The position numbers were made by a program, and so were the translations under genes. This document shows positions 2,812 through 17,127 of a stretch of DNA of 64,000 nt, piece by piece; position 1 is the stretch's first letter, and every line of letters begins with the position of its first letter. Source of the stretch: Spirochaetales bacterium (GTDB lineage Bacteria; Spirochaetota; Spirochaetia; SZUA-6; JAFGRV01). A model generated the notes under the pieces. The model searched no databases. It saw only the letters and a program-made list of their open reading frames with translations, and was not told where the DNA came from. The DNA lies in contig JAFGHO010000105.1 in assembly GCA_016930085.1 (NCBI GenBank), positions 1 through 64,000 on the forward strand. Direction: 5' to 3'.

Positions 2812-4218
2812 CTAATAGCTGTACTTGAGCTCGATGTAAAACGAATCCTCTTCGTCCAGCATGCCGAAGGTCGTGTACGGGTCGCTGACGATATCGCCGC
2901 CTGCGTCCTTTTTCATGCTGAAAAAGAGGTTCGCCCCCGCGCCGATATCGAAGGCGTCCGCGGCCTTGTAGGTGAAGGACGGCCTGAGCATGAAATCCCC
3001 GTATTTTTCATCCGTCTCCGCTTCCGTGTAATCCTCGGGGAAATTGTATATGCCCGCGAACGTGGTTTCGAGCAGGTCGTTCATGAAATTCTTCCGTACG
3101 ATGAGCATCACCGTCGACATGACGGCCCCCTTCTGGTTTCCCACCAGGTGAGAAAACTGCTCCGAGTATCCTTCAATGTAATACTGATCGCTCTGATTTA
3201 CGGTCAAGACGCCCGCTTTTTTGAAATTCGTCGTGATCTTTTGCGAGAATTGGAGGGTGACGGTGAGGTTGTCGAAGAAGGTGTAGCCTGCGCCGAGGAC
3301 GTACTGGAGATACGGGTTTTTGACAAAGGCATCGTCCCCCGCAAGGTCATCCGTGATAAAAAAAGCGGCTTCACCCCTGAAGTCGATGTCGAGGACGGGC
3401 CACGCGAAGTCGGCCCCGATAATGTGGACCCTGTTGAATGAAAAGTCGAGTGAGGCCGGAAAGCCGAACATGATACCCCCGCCTAAATCCTGCTGCACGA
3501 TATTTACTTTTACATCCGGAAGGTCGTCCCAGGCGTAAAGATAACTCAACGAGAAATCGATGCCGGGAAGCATGAAACCCGCCCTGAAGCCCGCCTCGAA
3601 ACTCGCCAATGCCTCCTCATCGGGATAGCTGAAATTGAACGTGACGGCTGAGAGTTCGGGCGGCAGATAGGATGAGAAATCCGGCATTCCCGGGGGGGTG
3701 AAGAGCGGTATGAAAACGCCCTCGATCATGAGAAAATCCGTGGGATAGAAATCAAGCCGCAGTGCGTTCACGGGAATGGCCGTGTCCTTCATGTCCGTCG
3801 AGGCCATGTTGATGAGTTCGGACAAATCCTTCGGATTGATGTTGTTGGTCGGGTTCAGGCCGTCGGCGGTTCCCCAGGAGACGATCTGGTAGCCCGCCGT
3901 CACGTCGAGGCTGTTCAAATAAAGGGAGAGGTACATCTCCCCCGGCCGTATCGAGAGCTTGTCGGCAAAGGCGCCGGGCCCGGCGAGGTCGTCGATTTCG
4001 AAATAGAGCGCACCATAGAGTTTCGCAATGCCGCTCGAATAGTCGGCGGCGAGTTGCATTTCCGCCGACAGCTTCTTGTAGTCCCAGTCGTCGTTCCATC
4101 CCGAAGGGATCCACACGGAGGATGTGACATATCCCCCGATGGAGGCGTTTTCATCCGAAAACCCCGGAACCGCCGTGACGATCATAAGTGTAAACACTAT
4201 AAGGATATTTTTTTTCAT
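2812..4218 (-). CDS. Outer-membrane beta-barrel protein (DUF1302/porin-like)
   Basis: About 468 residues. The start chosen is the ATG of MKKNILIVFTLMIV, 18 bases inside a possible GTG start, because it follows AAAGGGGAAA and opens directly into a signal peptide (cleavage near VPGFS/DE). The mature chain alternates strand-forming segments rich in Tyr, Phe, Gly and Asp, and ends in a terminal aromatic (ELKYSY), as outer-membrane barrels do. YQIVSWGTADGLNPTNNINP resembles the W.G..DG.NP..NI.P signature seen in DUF1302-like barrels. It is the last gene of a unit with a LolA-like protein and an RND permease, an arrangement expected for an export route that ends in the outer membrane. The substrate is not known. 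Confidence 0.75.
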   Translation of the reverse strand: MKKNILIVFTLMIVTAVPGFSDENASIGGYVTSSVWIPSGWNDDWDYKKLSAEMQLAADYSSGIAKLYGALYFEIDDLAGPGAFADKLSIRPGEMYLSLYLNSLDVTAGYQIVSWGTADGLNPTNNINPKDLSELINMASTDMKDTAIPVNALRLDFYPTDFLMIEGVFIPLFTPPGMPDFSSYLPPELSAVTFNFSYPDEEALASFEAGFRAGFMLPGIDFSLSYLYAWDDLPDVKVNIVQQDLGGGIMFGFPASLDFSFNRVHIIGADFAWPVLDIDFRGEAAFFITDDLAGDDAFVKNPYLQYVLGAGYTFFDNLTVTLQFSQKITTNFKKAGVLTVNQSDQYYIEGYSEQFSHLVGNQKGAVMSTVMLIVRKNFMNDLLETTFAGIYNFPEDYTEAETDEKYGDFMLRPSFTYKAADAFDIGAGANLFFSMKKDAGGDIVSDPYTTFGMLDEEDSFYIELKYSY

Positions 4219-4232
4219 GCCTTTTTCCCCTT

Positions 4233-5093
4233 TCACGCGCCGCGTTTCAGATACTGCTGGGTGAAATAGGAATCGTCGGGATTCGTGTTTATTTCGATAT
4301 GCTTCAATTCCATGATGGTTTTGTGGCTTTTCTTCACGTCTTCCACTTCGATAAGGGTGGGTATCCAGGTATCCGTAAACTCACGAATTTCCTTTATCCG
4401 CAAATTCTTGAAATAATTACCGTTGACGTCGAAAAAGACGGCCTGGAGAGGGGTCATTTTTTCCTTGCTGATCCAGTACACGATTCTGCCGTAGCCCGTG
4501 TCTTCTTTAACGGCATCGTTAGCCGGGACCGCCTCCACCACGTAACACGCTTCGCCGTCGACGGTTTCGTCTTCGAAGCGGTTGTTGGTGTAATCCTCGG
4601 GCGGCCTTTCTTCCATGTCGCTGTATGAAATATCCGAACCCATGAAACTGTCGTTCTTGCCGCTCGATACGATTCTTCTCGTCTTTTTCAGTTCGGGCAG
4701 GTACAGCCACATGTCCGTTTCGCCGTTCTCAGATTCGATCATCAGCAGTCCGGTCCCCTCGACGTCCGCCGGGGAAAGAAAGTGCAGTACCGTTTTGTTC
4801 AGTTTACCGTCTTCCTTCGATTTGATGGCGATCTCTCGTACCCGCCGGCTGCCGTTTTCATTGACGAGCGTCATGGTGATATCAGCGACGATATCGCCTG
4901 CCAGCAGTCTGCTGTTCGCCTCTTCCATGATTTGTTTTGCCTCGAGGCCGTCCGAACCGGTGTAGGGCGTGAGGCGGAACTGCGCCTGCGTCCCGTCCCC
5001 GGAGGCGGCTTCCTGTTCGCCCCCGGCGAACACGCATATCGGTGTCGACAATAAAATCAAAAAAATTACAATCAGTGGAACATGTTTCCGCAT
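4233..5093 (-). CDS. LolA-like outer-membrane lipoprotein-sorting family protein
   Basis: A 286-residue exported protein. The signal peptide (about residues 5-23) ends CVFAGGEQE, a form common in spirochaete exported proteins. The mature part matches the LolA-like family (Pfam 17131 type): ANSRLLAGDIVADITMTL at the start, then WLYLPELKKTRRI, the characteristic GSDISYSDMEER loop, and a late YWISKEKMTPLQAVFF. The fold is a half-barrel that carries a lipid or lipoprotein across the periplasm. Members are usually encoded next to MMPL/RND permeases, as here. The stop overlaps the alternative GTG of the barrel gene, and the permease stop lies 20 bases upstream of its start, so the genes are almost certainly co-transcribed. 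Confidence 0.85.
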   Translation of the reverse strand: MRKHVPLIVIFLILLSTPICVFAGGEQEAASGDGTQAQFRLTPYTGSDGLEAKQIMEEANSRLLAGDIVADITMTLVNENGSRRVREIAIKSKEDGKLNKTVLHFLSPADVEGTGLLMIESENGETDMWLYLPELKKTRRIVSSGKNDSFMGSDISYSDMEERPPEDYTNNRFEDETVDGEACYVVEAVPANDAVKEDTGYGRIVYWISKEKMTPLQAVFFDVNGNYFKNLRIKEIREFTDTWIPTLIEVEDVKKSHKTIMELKHIEINTNPDDSYFTQQYLKRGA

Positions 5094-5113
5094 TGTATAC
5101 CTCCTGAAATAGA

Positions 5114-7453
5114 TTATTCCATGCCGGATAACGCATCCGGCGATTTTTTGTACAGAGACTTCCTGAAAAAGGATCTTTTTTCCACCACCGCCAGGATGGC
5201 CGGTATCAATGTCATCGACCCCATCGATGTGACGAACATGGTCAGGGCGATCATCGCCCCCAGGACACCGATACTCGCCAGACTCGAAAGGACGAGGACC
5301 AGGAATCCGAACCCGACCGAGCAGGCGTTGTAGATGATCGCCTTTCCCGTCGTCGAGTTGGTGTTTTTGATTGCGTCCAAAACAGAGGCGCCATTGTTGC
5401 GTTCCGTTTTGTAGTGGCTTATATAATGGATGGAGTAATCGATGCCGATCCCGATGGCGACGCTCGCGATCAGGACGGTCGCCAGATCGAGCGGTATATC
5501 GAGCAATCCCATTAGCCCGAAGTTCAGGCAGATGGTAATGATAATGGGTATTGTCGAAATGACTCCCAGTATTACCGATCTGAATATGACGGCGGTAATC
5601 AGGAATACCAGAACGAGTGAAATAACGATACTCAGAAGCTGGCTTTGAACGATCAGGTCGCTCAGGACCATTATCGTTGAAATACGCCCGGTGACATTGA
5701 TTTCAAGGCCGTCCCGGTCGAAATTGTCGCGTATATAGGTTCTGATATGTTCTTCGAATTCCTCGAGTTTTTTCAGATTAACGCTTTTTACGAATATCGT
5801 TATGTTGGCCTTGCTGTAATCATAGTTGACGATATTTTCGAGCGTGCTTTCATTGCCGGTCAACGAATAAAGAAGCAGGTACTGTCCGATCAGTTTTTTG
5901 GAATCCGGAATCCTGTAAAATTTTTCATTATCCCCGTTCATCACGCGGTTCATTTCCTTGATCATGCCGGCTATCGATTGTGAACTTCCGACGATATCGA
6001 AACCGTCGACATACTTCTGAAAATCGTCTATTTCCCTGAGGACTTCCGGTTCCTTTATTTTATCCGCTTCATCGCTTTCGATAACGACCTGTAGCGTCAT
6101 CGTACCGGAAAAATATCTGTTGAAGAATTCATTGTCCTGCATGATTTTGGTATTCCTGCCGAACATCTGAACCAAATCGCTCTCCACCCGCAGCTTGAAT
6201 ATGCCTATAATCGATATGATAATGACAAGCAGGGCCGCAAGCAGAACGATCGATTTTCCTCTAAATACGGCATCGCCCAGTCCGGATAATATTCTTTGCA
6301 GAGAGAAGGTTTTTTTGCCGCCGGTTGCGTTGTCCGGGGTCGATAATTTTCCGGGAATCGGGAGGAGATAGAGAAGTGCGGGAATGAAGGTGATGGAAAA
6401 GATGAGGGCGCACACGACCCCCACGGCGGTGAATATTCCGAATCCCCTTATGATCTCGATCCCGGAACTCAAAAACGAAAGAAAACCGGCCACGGTCGTC
6501 AGGCCCGCCATGATCACGGCCAGCCCCGTGTGTTTGATGGTTTCCGTTATCGCCTGTTTTTTGTCTTCCCCTTTTTTTACGTCATGGATAAACCTGTTGA
6601 TGATATGGATGCCGTAGGCGGAACCGATCGCGATGAGAATCGTCGGAACGACCGTCGTCATGATCGACAACGGTATGTTGAGGACCGACATGATCCCGAG
6701 GGTCCATATAACACTTATGACAACGGTAAGAACCGGCAGCAGGACCCCCCTTATGTTCCTGAAACTCAAGAATAAAACCAGGAGGATGACGCAAATGACG
6801 ATCGGGGAAAGAAAGAGAAGGTCCTTTATGATAATGGCTTTGACTTCCGTCAAAGTTGCTGCTTCACCCGCGATTCTGTATTGTTCGCCGTCTTCTTTGT
6901 GCCGGTCGATAATGGACTTGATCCGGCCGAGTATTTTTTCCCTGTTTTCGCCGTCTTCGATCTGAATCAGGATAACGGCGGCTTTTTCGTCTTTTGAAAT
7001 AAAGGTGTCCTTGTAGAGGCGGTTTGTCGTAATCGTTTTTCTGTATTCCTCGATTTCTTCCGCAGTTTCGGGTATTGTTTCGAGGATCGGAAAAACTTCG
7101 ATCCCTTCATCCGTCCCTTCGATAATATCCACATTGGTGGGACCCAAAACCTGCCCGATACCGTCGATGGTTTTGAACTCGTTCGTCAGCGTATCCAGTT
7201 TGCGGATGATTTTGCCGGTAAAAATATTGTCTGACACCAGTCCGATAATGAAGAACTCCTGTTTCGGGAATATCTCGTTGATCCTGTCGAAATATTTCAC
7301 TTCCGGTATGTAGGACGGTATTGCCGCAGTAACATCCGCCTCGACATCCAGATCTTTAATCATGTAGCCCAGGACGGCGGTGATTATTGCAATCACGGCA
7401 ATGATAAGCTGCGGTTTTTTCGTGATGGCCTTTGATAATATATTCATTATCAT
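5114..7453 (-). CDS. RND/MMPL-family membrane exporter
   Basis: A 779-residue polytopic protein with the duplicated layout of the RND superfamily. One TM segment (about 13-31) is followed by a large periplasmic domain, then a five-helix bundle (about 210-370). A second TM (about 400-420), periplasmic domain and five-helix bundle (about 600-760) follow. Conserved pieces are IAIGSAYGIHIINRF in the first half and IGIGIDYSIHYISHY in the second, the TM4 motifs of MMPL/hopanoid-transporter-like proteins. AAGGAG sits 5 bases before ATG 7453. With the LolA-like protein and barrel downstream and a TetR gene upstream it forms a plausible regulated system moving a hydrophobic or lipid-like substrate outward. 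Substrate identity is inference. Confidence 0.88.
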   Translation of the reverse strand: MIMNILSKAITKKPQLIIAVIAIITAVLGYMIKDLDVEADVTAAIPSYIPEVKYFDRINEIFPKQEFFIIGLVSDNIFTGKIIRKLDTLTNEFKTIDGIGQVLGPTNVDIIEGTDEGIEVFPILETIPETAEEIEEYRKTITTNRLYKDTFISKDEKAAVILIQIEDGENREKILGRIKSIIDRHKEDGEQYRIAGEAATLTEVKAIIIKDLLFLSPIVICVILLVLFLSFRNIRGVLLPVLTVVISVIWTLGIMSVLNIPLSIMTTVVPTILIAIGSAYGIHIINRFIHDVKKGEDKKQAITETIKHTGLAVIMAGLTTVAGFLSFLSSGIEIIRGFGIFTAVGVVCALIFSITFIPALLYLLPIPGKLSTPDNATGGKKTFSLQRILSGLGDAVFRGKSIVLLAALLVIIISIIGIFKLRVESDLVQMFGRNTKIMQDNEFFNRYFSGTMTLQVVIESDEADKIKEPEVLREIDDFQKYVDGFDIVGSSQSIAGMIKEMNRVMNGDNEKFYRIPDSKKLIGQYLLLYSLTGNESTLENIVNYDYSKANITIFVKSVNLKKLEEFEEHIRTYIRDNFDRDGLEINVTGRISTIMVLSDLIVQSQLLSIVISLVLVFLITAVIFRSVILGVISTIPIIITICLNFGLMGLLDIPLDLATVLIASVAIGIGIDYSIHYISHYKTERNNGASVLDAIKNTNSTTGKAIIYNACSVGFGFLVLVLSSLASIGVLGAMIALTMFVTSMGSMTLIPAILAVVEKRSFFRKSLYKKSPDALSGME

Positions 7454-13012: not shown

Positions 13013-14005
13013 TTATTCGACCTTTGTAATCCTCCCCTCCCGGTCAAACTCGAGTTTTGCCCCGGCCTTGAGTGCTTTTTTCTCTCCCGCTACGATGAGG
13101 GCGGCGTCGCTGCCGAGGTATACGAAATGGGGGGCATCGGTATTGTAATGAAACGAGAGGTATTTTTTAGCCATAACGGGTATCCTCTGTGTTCCCACCC
13201 TGAGTGTGACTGGCTCTGCGATCATGATCATGAAGATATTACCGTCCTCCGTGAAGTTTATCGATGGGACCGACCCCGAAGAAGCGAGGGCCGTCACCTC
13301 ATATTTTCCGATGTTCACTTTTTTGTTTTCTTTCAGGATACCTCCCGATACCTTCCCGTTGATAAACGAAAGCCTCGTGCCTTTCGAAAAGGTATAACGG
13401 GTGTCTTTGATGATGAATGTGTGGTCGCTCTGCAATGTCAGCTGTACTATTTCGCCTTTGAAGTTGAACACGATATCGGGCAGATACTGATTGCCCGCGG
13501 CGGCGGCGTCAATCCGGTAGGAACCGATCGTCAATTCACTGTCGTCGAAAAGATAGCCGCCGTACAGGTAGATGTCGCCGGTATAATTCCTCATGAAAGA
13601 GATCGGTGTTCCGGCTTTTAGCATAACGGCCGATTTTTCCGTATTGACGGTAATGTTGTCCGCGAGGGTCGCCTCGATAATATAGTTGTATTCGGTGTTG
13701 AACCTGACCGCTTCCCCTTCCTTTAAGGGGATAATAATTCCGCCGATATCAACCGAGGTCTCCTCCGCGAGAACTCCTGTTTTCATGGTATCCGAGTATT
13801 TCGATTGCTCGATATCGGCAATCCTGATAATTTTTCCATTGAGAAAAACTTCTTCTCCCCTGTTTTTCTCAATGGGGGTTTCCGCCGCACGTGCCGCATC
13901 GACGCCGGCTTCCGATGACGTACCGCCCGTGCTCGCGCATGAAGAGGCAAAGATTGTCAATAACAGCAGGACGATGATTTCCGGTAAAAGGATTCTTTTT
14001 TTCAT
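13013..14005 (-). CDS. Beta-repeat lipoprotein, unknown function
   Basis: 330 residues. The start at ATG 14005 is supported by GGAGG 7 bases upstream. A longer frame to 14518 overlaps the GH5 gene and is not credible. The signal peptide ends in a lipobox (FASSC, Cys about 23), so the product is a lipoprotein. The mature chain repeats a beta pattern of roughly 70-80 residues with a hydrophobic strand, a short loop and then a G..L.F..NG/EG turn, e.g. FSKGTRLSFINGKV and LKAGAKLEFDREGRI, near the end of each unit. No enzyme motif is visible. It lies 92 bases downstream of the GH5 gene on the same strand and may be co-transcribed. Confidence 0.75.
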   Translation of the reverse strand: MKKRILLPEIIVLLLLTIFASSCASTGGTSSEAGVDAARAAETPIEKNRGEEVFLNGKIIRIADIEQSKYSDTMKTGVLAEETSVDIGGIIIPLKEGEAVRFNTEYNYIIEATLADNITVNTEKSAVMLKAGTPISFMRNYTGDIYLYGGYLFDDSELTIGSYRIDAAAAGNQYLPDIVFNFKGEIVQLTLQSDHTFIIKDTRYTFSKGTRLSFINGKVSGGILKENKKVNIGKYEVTALASSGSVPSINFTEDGNIFMIMIAEPVTLRVGTQRIPVMAKKYLSFHYNTDAPHFVYLGSDAALIVAGEKKALKAGAKLEFDREGRITKVE

Positions 14006-14097
14006 CGCAGGCCTCCGTCTTTTTTGTTTCCTTACCATGCTATTACTATGAACGAAATTCGGAATAATTTCAAACGGAAATACACCCGGGGGTATTG

Positions 14098-15996
14098 TTA
14101 TTTTCCCTTTGTACCGGCGGGAAATACGGTAATTTCGCACACACTCCTCGATGCGGGCGGGCGAACGGCCAGAAGCGACGCCGAAGGATCGAATTCCCAT
14201 GTTCCGCAGGAGAGGGTAACAGTGATTCCGGACGGATAATGGACGGAGGGTATGAATATTTCCGTGGCCCCCCCGCAGGAAGAATCGTGATCGAACGTCA
14301 GTCTGAATCGTCCCGTTTTCCGGTTGAATGACATGGCGAGCGGTCTGCCTGAAATTTTTTTCGCGTACGGCCTCACGAAACCGAAAAGGGCTTTTGCCCC
14401 CGAATCGATGGACGCCGGATCGTCCTGAAGGTCTCTGCTGAATACGGAAAAATCCTCCCCGTTCCACCCGTCGCCGTATACCGCGGTGTTGTCCGCCGAG
14501 TAATTCCAAAGCGTGCAATGCAGAAGATTCTTGTCCATTGCATAAAAATAAAGATCGAACGCCCGCTCATATGCTGAAAAATCCCGGGTACGGTACGCTT
14601 TTTTCTTCTCACCGTCAAAGGGTATTCCGAACTCGCCGATCAATGTGGGAATACGGCCCATCCTGTCAAAGGAGGTTTTCCCCAGCAGACGAAGCTGCCG
14701 CACGACGGCCCGCTTTACCCTTTCCGCGCCGAGAATGACTCTTTCCTTTATCGTATCGACGGTGATGAACGTCCTGAACTTTTTTGACATAATCGTCAAT
14801 GCATCGTACCAGTGGTGCGCGTTCACGACGTTTTTTCCGTCTTTTTCCGACCATGAAAAATAGTCGTTTCCTACCGGTCCCTCGATAAAAAAGAGTGTTT
14901 TCGGTTTTACTGTGGCTATTTCCCGGATAAAACGCCTCAAAAAAGGCTTAAGATAATCTTCGGCAAAGTCAACGCTCCTGTTTTGCCTGAAGGAAAAATA
15001 GAAGGGCTTGAGTAGTTCCGGCTGTTTCGAACGGCGCCCTTTATCCGTCCAGACGCCGTGCCGTTTCCAGATGCATTCGTATCCCTCTTTCCAGAGAGAG
15101 ATACCGTTCGGGTTAATGATCGCCGAGCCGGTTCTGACGGGGAAGATGGTACCGGATGAGTACCGCGGAACCTTTTGCGGATACCCCGAAGCCGCCAGCA
15201 TGGATTGGAAGGGGGTGGGTGTATCCCTTATGCGGAGGGGATTCAGCCCGTGCCGGCCGAGATGGCGGTAACCGATATACCCCGCAAGGGGTTCGTTCAG
15301 GGTATCGTACCCCGTGACATTCGGAAGACGGCAAAGCCGTCCGGCGACCCGTTTGACTGCACCGATGAAGTGGTGCTGCAGGAATTCCTGAACCGGTACC
15401 CCGTCGAGGAGTGTGTGGGGGGCGAAATCGGTCCCGCCGAAAAAAAGGGTGAACATTGTGGCGGCTCCGAGTTTATACCGGTTTGTCGTCCATATCATCG
15501 ACGGGGGCCTGCCGTTATAAAAGGAATGGACGAACGCGGAACCGGTTTCATGGAACTTCAATATATCCATGCCGAGAAGCTCCATCGTCCACGCGGGCGC
15601 CCCGTCGCCCCCCGTCCACCTGCTCCACATGTCATTGTGGGGATCGATAAAGAGATCGATGCCGTACCGCGCCGCCGCTTCGCACACCTGTTCGAGGTAG
15701 TCCAGGTAATCTTCATCGTATACTCCCGGGCCCGCGTGTTCGACGGCCTCCCACGTTATGAGAAAACGGATAAAGGTGAGACCCCACGAGGCAAGCCGCG
15801 AATAATGCTCGTCCGCCTCGTCGAGGGGAAAAGGCCGGCCGATAAAGGAAACCGTTTCGGGGTGGAGGAGTGATTCCTTTTTATGACTGGAACCATCCGG
15901 CCGGGCCGGAATCTTGCTGTTGCCGCCGAGGTTGACGCCGCGCAGAATGAGTGTTCTTCCTTCATCGTCCTTGATCCATATCCCGTCTGTTTTCAA
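14098..15996 (-). CDS. Glycoside hydrolase family 5, EGCase/steryl-glucosidase-like
   Basis: 632 residues, no signal peptide. The catalytic acid/base is in GYDTLNEPL (about residue 235) and the nucleophile in TLIGEFGIPFDG (about 453). The N-terminus ILRGVNLGGNSK and the insert from PHNDMWSRWTGGDGAPAWT on resemble the GH5 subgroup that includes endoglycoceramidases and the fungal glucocerebrosidase/steryl-glucosidase EGH1 (GH5_12), including the long insert that follows. A C-terminal beta domain (about 540-632) follows, also typical. It probably cleaves a glucoside with a lipid aglycone, but that is inference from similarity. The start is TTG 15996, with GGGAG rather far upstream; no ATG precedes the first conserved strand. 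Confidence 0.85.
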   Translation of the reverse strand: MKTDGIWIKDDEGRTLILRGVNLGGNSKIPARPDGSSHKKESLLHPETVSFIGRPFPLDEADEHYSRLASWGLTFIRFLITWEAVEHAGPGVYDEDYLDYLEQVCEAAARYGIDLFIDPHNDMWSRWTGGDGAPAWTMELLGMDILKFHETGSAFVHSFYNGRPPSMIWTTNRYKLGAATMFTLFFGGTDFAPHTLLDGVPVQEFLQHHFIGAVKRVAGRLCRLPNVTGYDTLNEPLAGYIGYRHLGRHGLNPLRIRDTPTPFQSMLAASGYPQKVPRYSSGTIFPVRTGSAIINPNGISLWKEGYECIWKRHGVWTDKGRRSKQPELLKPFYFSFRQNRSVDFAEDYLKPFLRRFIREIATVKPKTLFFIEGPVGNDYFSWSEKDGKNVVNAHHWYDALTIMSKKFRTFITVDTIKERVILGAERVKRAVVRQLRLLGKTSFDRMGRIPTLIGEFGIPFDGEKKKAYRTRDFSAYERAFDLYFYAMDKNLLHCTLWNYSADNTAVYGDGWNGEDFSVFSRDLQDDPASIDSGAKALFGFVRPYAKKISGRPLAMSFNRKTGRFRLTFDHDSSCGGATEIFIPSVHYPSGITVTLSCGTWEFDPSASLLAVRPPASRSVCEITVFPAGTKGK

Positions 15997-16048: not shown

Positions 16049-17035
16049 CTATAATATGTTGATCACTTTACAGAGAAAGTATATATAAAACAGAACGAAC
16101 ATCATACCCTCCCACCTGCTGACCTGTTTATCCTGAGTCGTGACGAGGAAGAGAAGCGAGGCGATCACCATCGCGGGGATACCGGTGGTAATGATCGATG
16201 GTGTGACGATGAGTCCTTCCTGAGCCCCGGGCGCGGCGATCGAAACAATACCGGTTATACCGGGCACGGCGAATGAATTGAATATGTTCGAGCCCAGGAT
16301 ATTCCCCACGACCATCTCCGCATTGTTTTTCCCGACCGCGCTGACGGTTACCCCCAATTCCGGTAATGATGTTCCCAAAGCGACGGCACTGACCGCGACG
16401 ATATCGTTTCCGACACCGAAGAAAGAGGCGATATTGACGACCGAATCGACGGTGAGTTTCGCGCCGATAAAGATAATGAAGGCGCTTGCGAGAATGACGA
16501 GAAACGGGCGGATGGAGAAGGGGGGTTTTACCTCTTTTTCTTCCTCCGCCTGCGGTTTGCGGCCGGATTCAATCATATAGAACATGAAGATGAAAAGTCC
16601 GCCTGAAAGAAGCACCGCATCGAAAAAGGAAATGCGCGCGTCCCACATGACAAACGAGACCAGTAACGCCGATCCCACGAACAGGGGGAGATCGACGTTG
16701 ATAAGATCGTATTTGATAACGAGTTTTTTCCCGACGATTGCGCCGATTCCGAGGATCAAAAAGATATTCGCGACATTCGAGCCGATGACGTTTCCCGCCA
16801 CGATTTCCGACGAGCCTTCCAGGACCGCGACCACGGACGATATGAGTTCGGGGAGGGAGGTTCCGATGCCGACGATGACGACACCCACGATAAACTGGGG
16901 AATTCCCGCCATGAGTCCTATTTTTTCGGCTGCACCGGTGAACCGGTCGGAGCCCTTGATGAGGACGAAAAGACTCACCGGAAAGATGACGAACCAGAGA
17001 TGAGGGGGAATTTCCAGACCCATGAGTGTTTCCAT
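16049..17035 (-). CDS. Calcium/sodium antiporter (CaCA family, YrbG-like)
   Basis: 328 residues with about ten TM helices. The two inverted-topology alpha repeats are clear. The first has GIGTSLPELISSVV, then GNVIGSNVANI. The second has ALGTSLPELGVTV, then GNILGSNIFNSF. Their acidic residues bind Ca2+. ATG 17035 has GGAG at a 7-base distance. The gene has its own promoter at 17128-17156. It exports Ca2+ in exchange for Na+ or H+ at the inner membrane. The GH5 gene starts 52 bases downstream on the same strand. Confidence 0.9.
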   Translation of the reverse strand: METLMGLEIPPHLWFVIFPVSLFVLIKGSDRFTGAAEKIGLMAGIPQFIVGVVIVGIGTSLPELISSVVAVLEGSSEIVAGNVIGSNVANIFLILGIGAIVGKKLVIKYDLINVDLPLFVGSALLVSFVMWDARISFFDAVLLSGGLFIFMFYMIESGRKPQAEEEKEVKPPFSIRPFLVILASAFIIFIGAKLTVDSVVNIASFFGVGNDIVAVSAVALGTSLPELGVTVSAVGKNNAEMVVGNILGSNIFNSFAVPGITGIVSIAAPGAQEGLIVTPSIITTGIPAMVIASLLFLVTTQDKQVSRWEGMMFVLFYIYFLCKVINIL

Positions 17036-17127
17036 TTTTTTTCTCCGAAGGCAGTCTCCCGGCACGAATCGGCCTGCATGCGACGGGTAATCCCGACATA
17101 CATCGGGTAATTTCCCGCTTCCTTTAT

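Follow-up and report, generated by a model that had tools for sequence, protein, structure and literature searches.

What does an enzyme that resembles fungal steryl-glucosidases do in a spirochaete, and did its gene come from a fungus? The gene lies in a window of 64,000 nucleotides, the whole stretch analyzed here, from a draft genome of a Spirochaetales bacterium (contig JAFGHO010000105.1). We favor, with a probability of about 75%, the reading that its product is a retaining beta-glucosidase of the cytosol that belongs to the bacterial branch of GH5_12 and would cleave monoglucosides with a bulky hydrophobic aglycone, encoded by a stand-alone gene that is not of recent fungal origin.

The open reading frame (ORF) at positions 14098 to 15996 of the minus strand is intact in the ORF list and encodes a predicted GH5 (GH5_12-like) beta-glucosidase of 632 amino acids, starting with TTG. 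Inspection by eye shows the bases AAGGGAG ending 13 bases ahead of the TTG, and the third codon before it is an in-frame TAA. This stop rules out a longer N terminus, and the ORF is therefore without a signal peptide, as the first-pass annotation had stated; inspection of the first 25 residues found no long hydrophobic stretch. Pfam recognizes Cellulase (PF00150) at residues 61 to 127 (E = 6.1e-12) and Glyco_hydro_5_C (PF18564) at residues 542 to 624 (E = 6.8e-20). The latter corresponds to a C-terminal beta-sandwich domain (positions 14125 to 14373, minus strand), whose strands are present in the predicted model. At 95.95% completeness, the 5.36-Mb genome (135 contigs) contains a single match to the protein at E ≤ 0.001.

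We then compared the protein with known structures. Aspergillus SglA was the best PDB sequence match by phmmer (E = 4e-108 over residues 2 to 525), a resemblance far beyond chance, and Cryptococcus Sgl1 was the second (2e-94), followed by bacterial endoglycoceramidases (1e-19). A 19-row family profile returned SglA at 4e-169 and Sgl1 at 3e-159, and then dropped to 4e-32. The structure prediction is of high confidence (pLDDT 90.6, pTM 0.92), and its fold agrees along almost the entire chain with those of SglA from Aspergillus fumigatus (8exd; VIA Z 51.3, 602 of 632 residues, 2.0 Å) and Sgl1/EGCrP2 from Cryptococcus neoformans (7lpo; VIA Z 44.7, 619 aligned residues, 2.1 Å), although the window protein, at 632 residues, is shorter than the 779- and 797-residue chains of those structures. 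Endoglycoceramidase II aligned over 424 residues (VIA Z 34.5). Foldseek TM-scores, normalized to query length, were 0.87 to 0.92 for Sgl1 and SglA versus 0.54 to 0.57 for Rhodococcus endoglycoceramidases. An identity as an ordinary GH5 cellulase, the placement that the first-pass annotation had named as the one that would overturn its reading, was rejected. Cellulases are not the best match; they are distant, appearing in the profile search at E = 7e-9 and weaker, behind the endoglycoceramidases, and among the structural matches listed the other GH5 enzymes, cellulases included, reach Z ≤ 25.8, with the cellulases aligning over about 300 residues.

The likeness to fungal glucocerebrosidase and steryl-glucosidase that had first drawn attention to this gene is thus borne out by sequence, profile, and predicted-fold matches, and the long insert and C-terminal beta domain noted at the same time reappear in the PF18564 match, in the model, and in its superposition on SglA. 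GH5_12 membership is well supported, the closest enzymes of solved structure by sequence and predicted fold being the fungal Sgl1 and SglA, which we take to be members of GH5_12. Cryptococcus EGCrP1 has been placed in this subfamily (PMC3526467), and Sgl1 has been called a homologue of EGCrP1 within GH5 (PMC9698648). Judging from the model, the long insert most likely corresponds to the Sgl1 cap, which seals the pocket there; endoglycoceramidase II is described as having no such cap (PMC8497620).

For Sgl1, the residues that bind glucose and carry out catalysis have been named, together with W584, which excludes a second sugar (PMC8497620). In our alignment, Sgl1 K47, H142, D144, N269, and E270 correspond to K28, H120, D122, N234, and E235 of the window protein, and Y453, E520, W570, W584, and E587 to Y397, E455, W497, W511, and E514; all 10 of these sugar-contacting, catalytic, and wall residues are identical. 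The glucose-contact residues H120 and D122 lie in the motif PHNDMWSRWTGGDGAPAWT (residues 119 to 137; positions 15586 to 15642, minus strand). With roles carried over from Sgl1 (PMC8497620), E235 (15292 to 15294, minus strand) is the predicted catalytic acid/base, E455 (14632 to 14634, minus strand) is the predicted nucleophile, and W511 (14464 to 14466, minus strand) would be the wall that leaves space for one sugar. Eight of the ten residues, including E235 and E455 as the glutamate pair typical of clan GH-A, are conserved in 100 of 100 other bacterial and archaeal rows; the counts for W511 and E514 are 99 and 98, respectively. The window protein therefore shares with SglA and Sgl1 the two catalytic glutamates, every mapped glucose contact, and the single-sugar tryptophan wall, and has in common with them the cap elements, the C-terminal beta-sandwich, and the lack of a signal peptide.

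On the aglycone side, two of the four sterol-facing positions of Sgl1 keep an aliphatic residue (L290 is L254 and L458 is I402 in the window protein) and two clearly differ (L431 is G376 and A470 is T415). Since the L431Q and A470Q substitutions are reported to leave Sgl1 activity unaffected (PMC8497620), these differences are weak evidence either way. Fungal EGCrP1 uses glucosylceramide with a modeled site very similar to that of Sgl1, which acts on steryl glucosides (PMC9698648). Because the two sites are alike and the substrates differ, an identical active site does not fix the aglycone. As aligned, the sugar side of the pocket is predicted to hold one beta-glucose, and the aglycone side is ambiguous.

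The likely lack of a signal peptide extends to most of the relatives compared. In 88 of 100 relatives, at most 45 residues precede the equivalent of K28, and none of these 88 has a hydrophobic N-terminal segment, which we defined, with a threshold of our own, as a 14-residue mean hydropathy over 1.7. The other 12 have longer possible N termini. Three of these 12 (L013, L032, and L101) exceed the hydropathy mark when read from a start codon farther upstream, which is possibly not the real one. By eye, the N terminus of a Chloroflexota member (L082) is lipoprotein-like and those of two Bacteroidota members (L111 and L138) are membrane-anchor-like; from their sequences, these few seem to have left the cytosol. 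The fungal enzyme Sgl1 is reportedly vacuolar, according to the title of a 2025 paper. It has been described elsewhere as cytosolic (PMC9698648).

The mechanism class, a retaining beta-glucosidase, is well supported. The enzyme is predicted to take off one beta-linked glucose, with an aglycone that would be bulky and hydrophobic. For the natural substrate, we infer a target that is most likely a monoglucosyl lipid of the membrane, of the glucosyl-diacylglycerol or glucosylceramide type, or else an imported lipid or a plant or fungal glucoside. The enzyme would then act in turnover or salvage, on the cytosolic side of the membrane. A soluble glucoside of the aryl or terpenyl type would be an equally good fit. 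We looked in the genome for enzymes that could make a glucolipid. The MGDG synthase domain PF06925 and the EryCIII-like glycosyltransferase PF06722 had no match in this draft (3 and 8 of 14 controls, respectively, had matches). PF13506 gave four hits, but this family is unspecific, matching in 11 of the 14 controls. Since these searches were negative or uninformative, it is solely the resemblance of the pocket that points to a lipid.

Could the protein be a true sterylglucosidase, recycling sterol glucosides from eukaryotic material or from a host? Its closest characterized relatives are sterylglucosidases, the fold match covers nearly the whole chain, and the sugar site is identical. Fungal enzymes recycle the sterol glucosides of their own cells, and Borrelia, also a spirochaete, is reported to import cholesterol and glycosylate it (PMC8168883, PMC3542181). 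The sterol/hopanoid cyclase domain PF13243, however, had no match in the window genome (2 of 14 controls had matches). In a draft that is about 96% complete, the absence of a match is not proof, but it makes a home-made steryl glucoside unlikely as the substrate. The best 80 of 403 relatives are, moreover, mostly labeled as Chloroflexota, a phylum that is not known to use sterols. The sterol-facing residues are only partly kept, and the example of EGCrP1, which cuts glucosylceramide with an Sgl1-like modeled site (PMC9698648), leaves the site silent on the aglycone. We therefore regard a sterylglucosidase as unlikely, at perhaps one chance in five.

An endoglycoceramidase of the GH5_27/28/29 type, which would release oligosaccharides from glycosphingolipids, is far less probable still. 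Endoglycoceramidases are the second-best match in both sequence and fold, with the same two-domain plan; the bacterial enzymes of GH5_28/29 (2osx and 5ccu) have a GH5 barrel, a C-terminal beta domain, and a related glucose site, as the window protein does. The endoglycoceramidase I model was also the only NCBIfam match among the matches listed, but it scored 80.5 bits against a cut-off of 700, and 2osx and 5ccu align with our model over only 408 to 424 residues, a match much weaker than that to Sgl1 and SglA. The window protein keeps the cap elements and the single-sugar tryptophan; endoglycoceramidase II, unlike Sgl1, is described as having an exposed site and no closed cavity (PMC8497620). 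Finally, the window protein is not secreted, whereas GH5_27/28/29 enzymes are described as exclusively extracellular (PMC3526467). The monoglucosidase with a bulky hydrophobic aglycone remains the reading we prefer.

The family is not restricted to one bacterium. At E of 1e-3 or better, 52 of 392 sampled Spirochaetota genomes matched the window protein, and 40 of 392, the genome of the window included, matched at E ≤ 1e-40. Among the closer relatives, 12 of 61 genomes matched at 1e-3, again counting the genome of the window. With the A1 profile at 1e-40, and counting the genome on which each sample was centered, we found matches in 6 of 251 genomes of the Levilinea phylum (Chloroflexota), 2 of 395 of the Flavobacteriaceae-centered phylum (Bacteroidota), and 4 of 282 of the phylum centered on a Myxococcales bin, where one match is short and partial. 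A scan of species genomes gave 403 related stretches. The best 80 of these, as labeled, come mostly from Chloroflexota and also carry the labels Spirochaetota, Bacillota, Bacteroidota, Myxococcota, Coprothermobacterota, a Proteobacteria bin, and a Theionarchaea bin. Many of the matches are metagenome bins, so odd single phylum labels may reflect mis-binning. A spirochaete protein (L017) and one from an Anaerolineales bin (L114) form a close pair (support 100, quick tree), which points to cross-phylum transfer or to mis-binning. One spirochaete genome (G015) has three family copies (L005, L013, and L016), 42 to 48% identical to the window protein.

A GH5_12 clade "dominated by bacterial enzymes" has been on record since 2012 (PMC3526467), and our homologues, spread over several phyla, agree with its description, the comparison being one of descriptions only. 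The window protein is one more member of this known bacterial branch. The first-pass annotation had called such enzymes best known from fungi; this is right only for characterized members, since bacterial GH5_12 enzymes were already reported in 2012 (PMC3526467). A search of the literature by title, in which subscription journals were mostly uncovered, found no characterized bacterial GH5_12 or sterylglucosidase homologue among the matches listed.

To place the gene we built trees. From 141 loci, 11 were skipped: L001 (the window itself), the glycosyltransferase hits L124 to L127, L010 and L014 (cut at a contig start), L015 (second hit on the L011 contig), L141 (a partial match), and L005 and L040 (by choice). 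Removing rows more than 72% identical reduced 133 rows to 105, and 62 of the 105 were hand-picked for spread. Two fungal sequences were used, both as fragments. The intended outgroup rows, L011 and L012, which we assumed to be endoglycoceramidase-like, were unsuitable for rooting, since they failed to pair and sat on terminal branches of 8.16 and 10; the 62-row tree was built without them. Both trees are without a usable root, and the bootstrap of the 62-row tree had not settled.

The 62-row IQ-TREE joins the window protein to three spirochaete proteins of its own family (support 100/85), within a set of 15 spirochaete rows that is less firm (83/95). The fungal pair makes up a clade of its own elsewhere (100/100), and the window protein does not fall inside it. 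A quick tree of 105 rows also joins the four family rows (98), but apart from 16 other spirochaetes and on the Chloroflexota side (89 for an 85-row set). The two trees disagree about the neighbors of the four-row group, and its wider placement is therefore unsure, but in both trees the four rows stand together and away from the fungal pair. Fungi and Bacteroidota grouped weakly in the quick tree (82) and did not group in the 62-row tree. A tree constrained to unite the window protein with the fungi is worse by 55.5 log-likelihood units, with a marginal AU p of 0.0449. The rejection is stronger when the 24 spirochaete rows are all made a single clade (p = 0.00135), which indicates movement of the gene between bacterial phyla. 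The exchange was apparently chiefly with Chloroflexota. The two G015 copies placed in this tree are not sisters; L016 pairs with L107 (100/99).

These trees also bear on the interdomain transfer that the first-pass annotation had raised as possible. In its favor, the characterized relatives are fungal, at 34 to 35% identity; same-family bacteria, however, are 56% identical to the window protein and Anaerolineae up to 54%. The window protein sits with its own family in a wide bacterial radiation, apart from the fungal clade, and the joint clade is disfavored. On tree, identity, and distribution, we reject transfer from a fungus into this bacterium, to which we give hardly any probability. The gene would instead have been inherited and exchanged among bacteria. 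The aligned sequences speak against a fungal source for the window gene, and the unrooted trees do not fix the direction between bacteria and fungi. The opposite direction is a tentative possibility, less likely than not: the fungal sterylglucosidase may be a late offshoot of an old, diverse family of bacterial lipid beta-glucosidases, fungi having gained the gene from bacteria, with the bacterial enzymes serving an undescribed route of membrane glucolipid turnover. If this were true, bacteria would keep the ancestral activity and present many targets for inhibitors designed against the fungal enzyme.

Sgl1 has been called a fungal-specific drug target (PMC8497620). The presence of the ten-residue sugar site in several bacterial phyla, and of a window member with the predicted overall fold of Sgl1, matters for the selectivity of such inhibitors. 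Knowing what these enzymes naturally cut could also uncover a bacterial salvage step for beta-glucolipids. For the window gene itself, the result is ordinary: a further bacterial member of GH5_12.

We examined the gene neighborhoods of 80 loci and the window (745 ORFs, targets included). Besides the enzyme itself, no neighbor family occurred in more than 6 of the 81 loci. In six of the 81, our simple gene caller made no target call in the enzyme cluster, and these were left out; in three of them (L065, L089, and L091) a longer antisense ORF had displaced the target. Of 67 operon-like neighbors, 13 were dropped as short, at contig edges, or presumed close duplicates, and 54 were run against Pfam. 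The commonest families, DAO and HI0933-like, reached only 5 of 54, which amounts to no neighborhood signal. In the window, the co-directional upstream neighbor (positions 16049 to 17065, minus strand) belongs to the Na/Ca exchanger family (PF01699). An exchanger also lies near the homologue in the same-family locus L044 (JAFGQK010000001.1), with a PKD-domain ORF in between; we attach no function to this neighbor. The downstream ORF (13013 to 14080, minus strand), which had no Pfam match at E ≤ 0.001, has a likely start (MKKRILLPEIIVLLLLTIFASSC...) that resembles a lipoprotein signal. In a spirochaete bin (L054, positions 3910 to 5964), a WD40-repeat protein of 684 amino acids with 11 Pfam stretches lies directly upstream of a family member.
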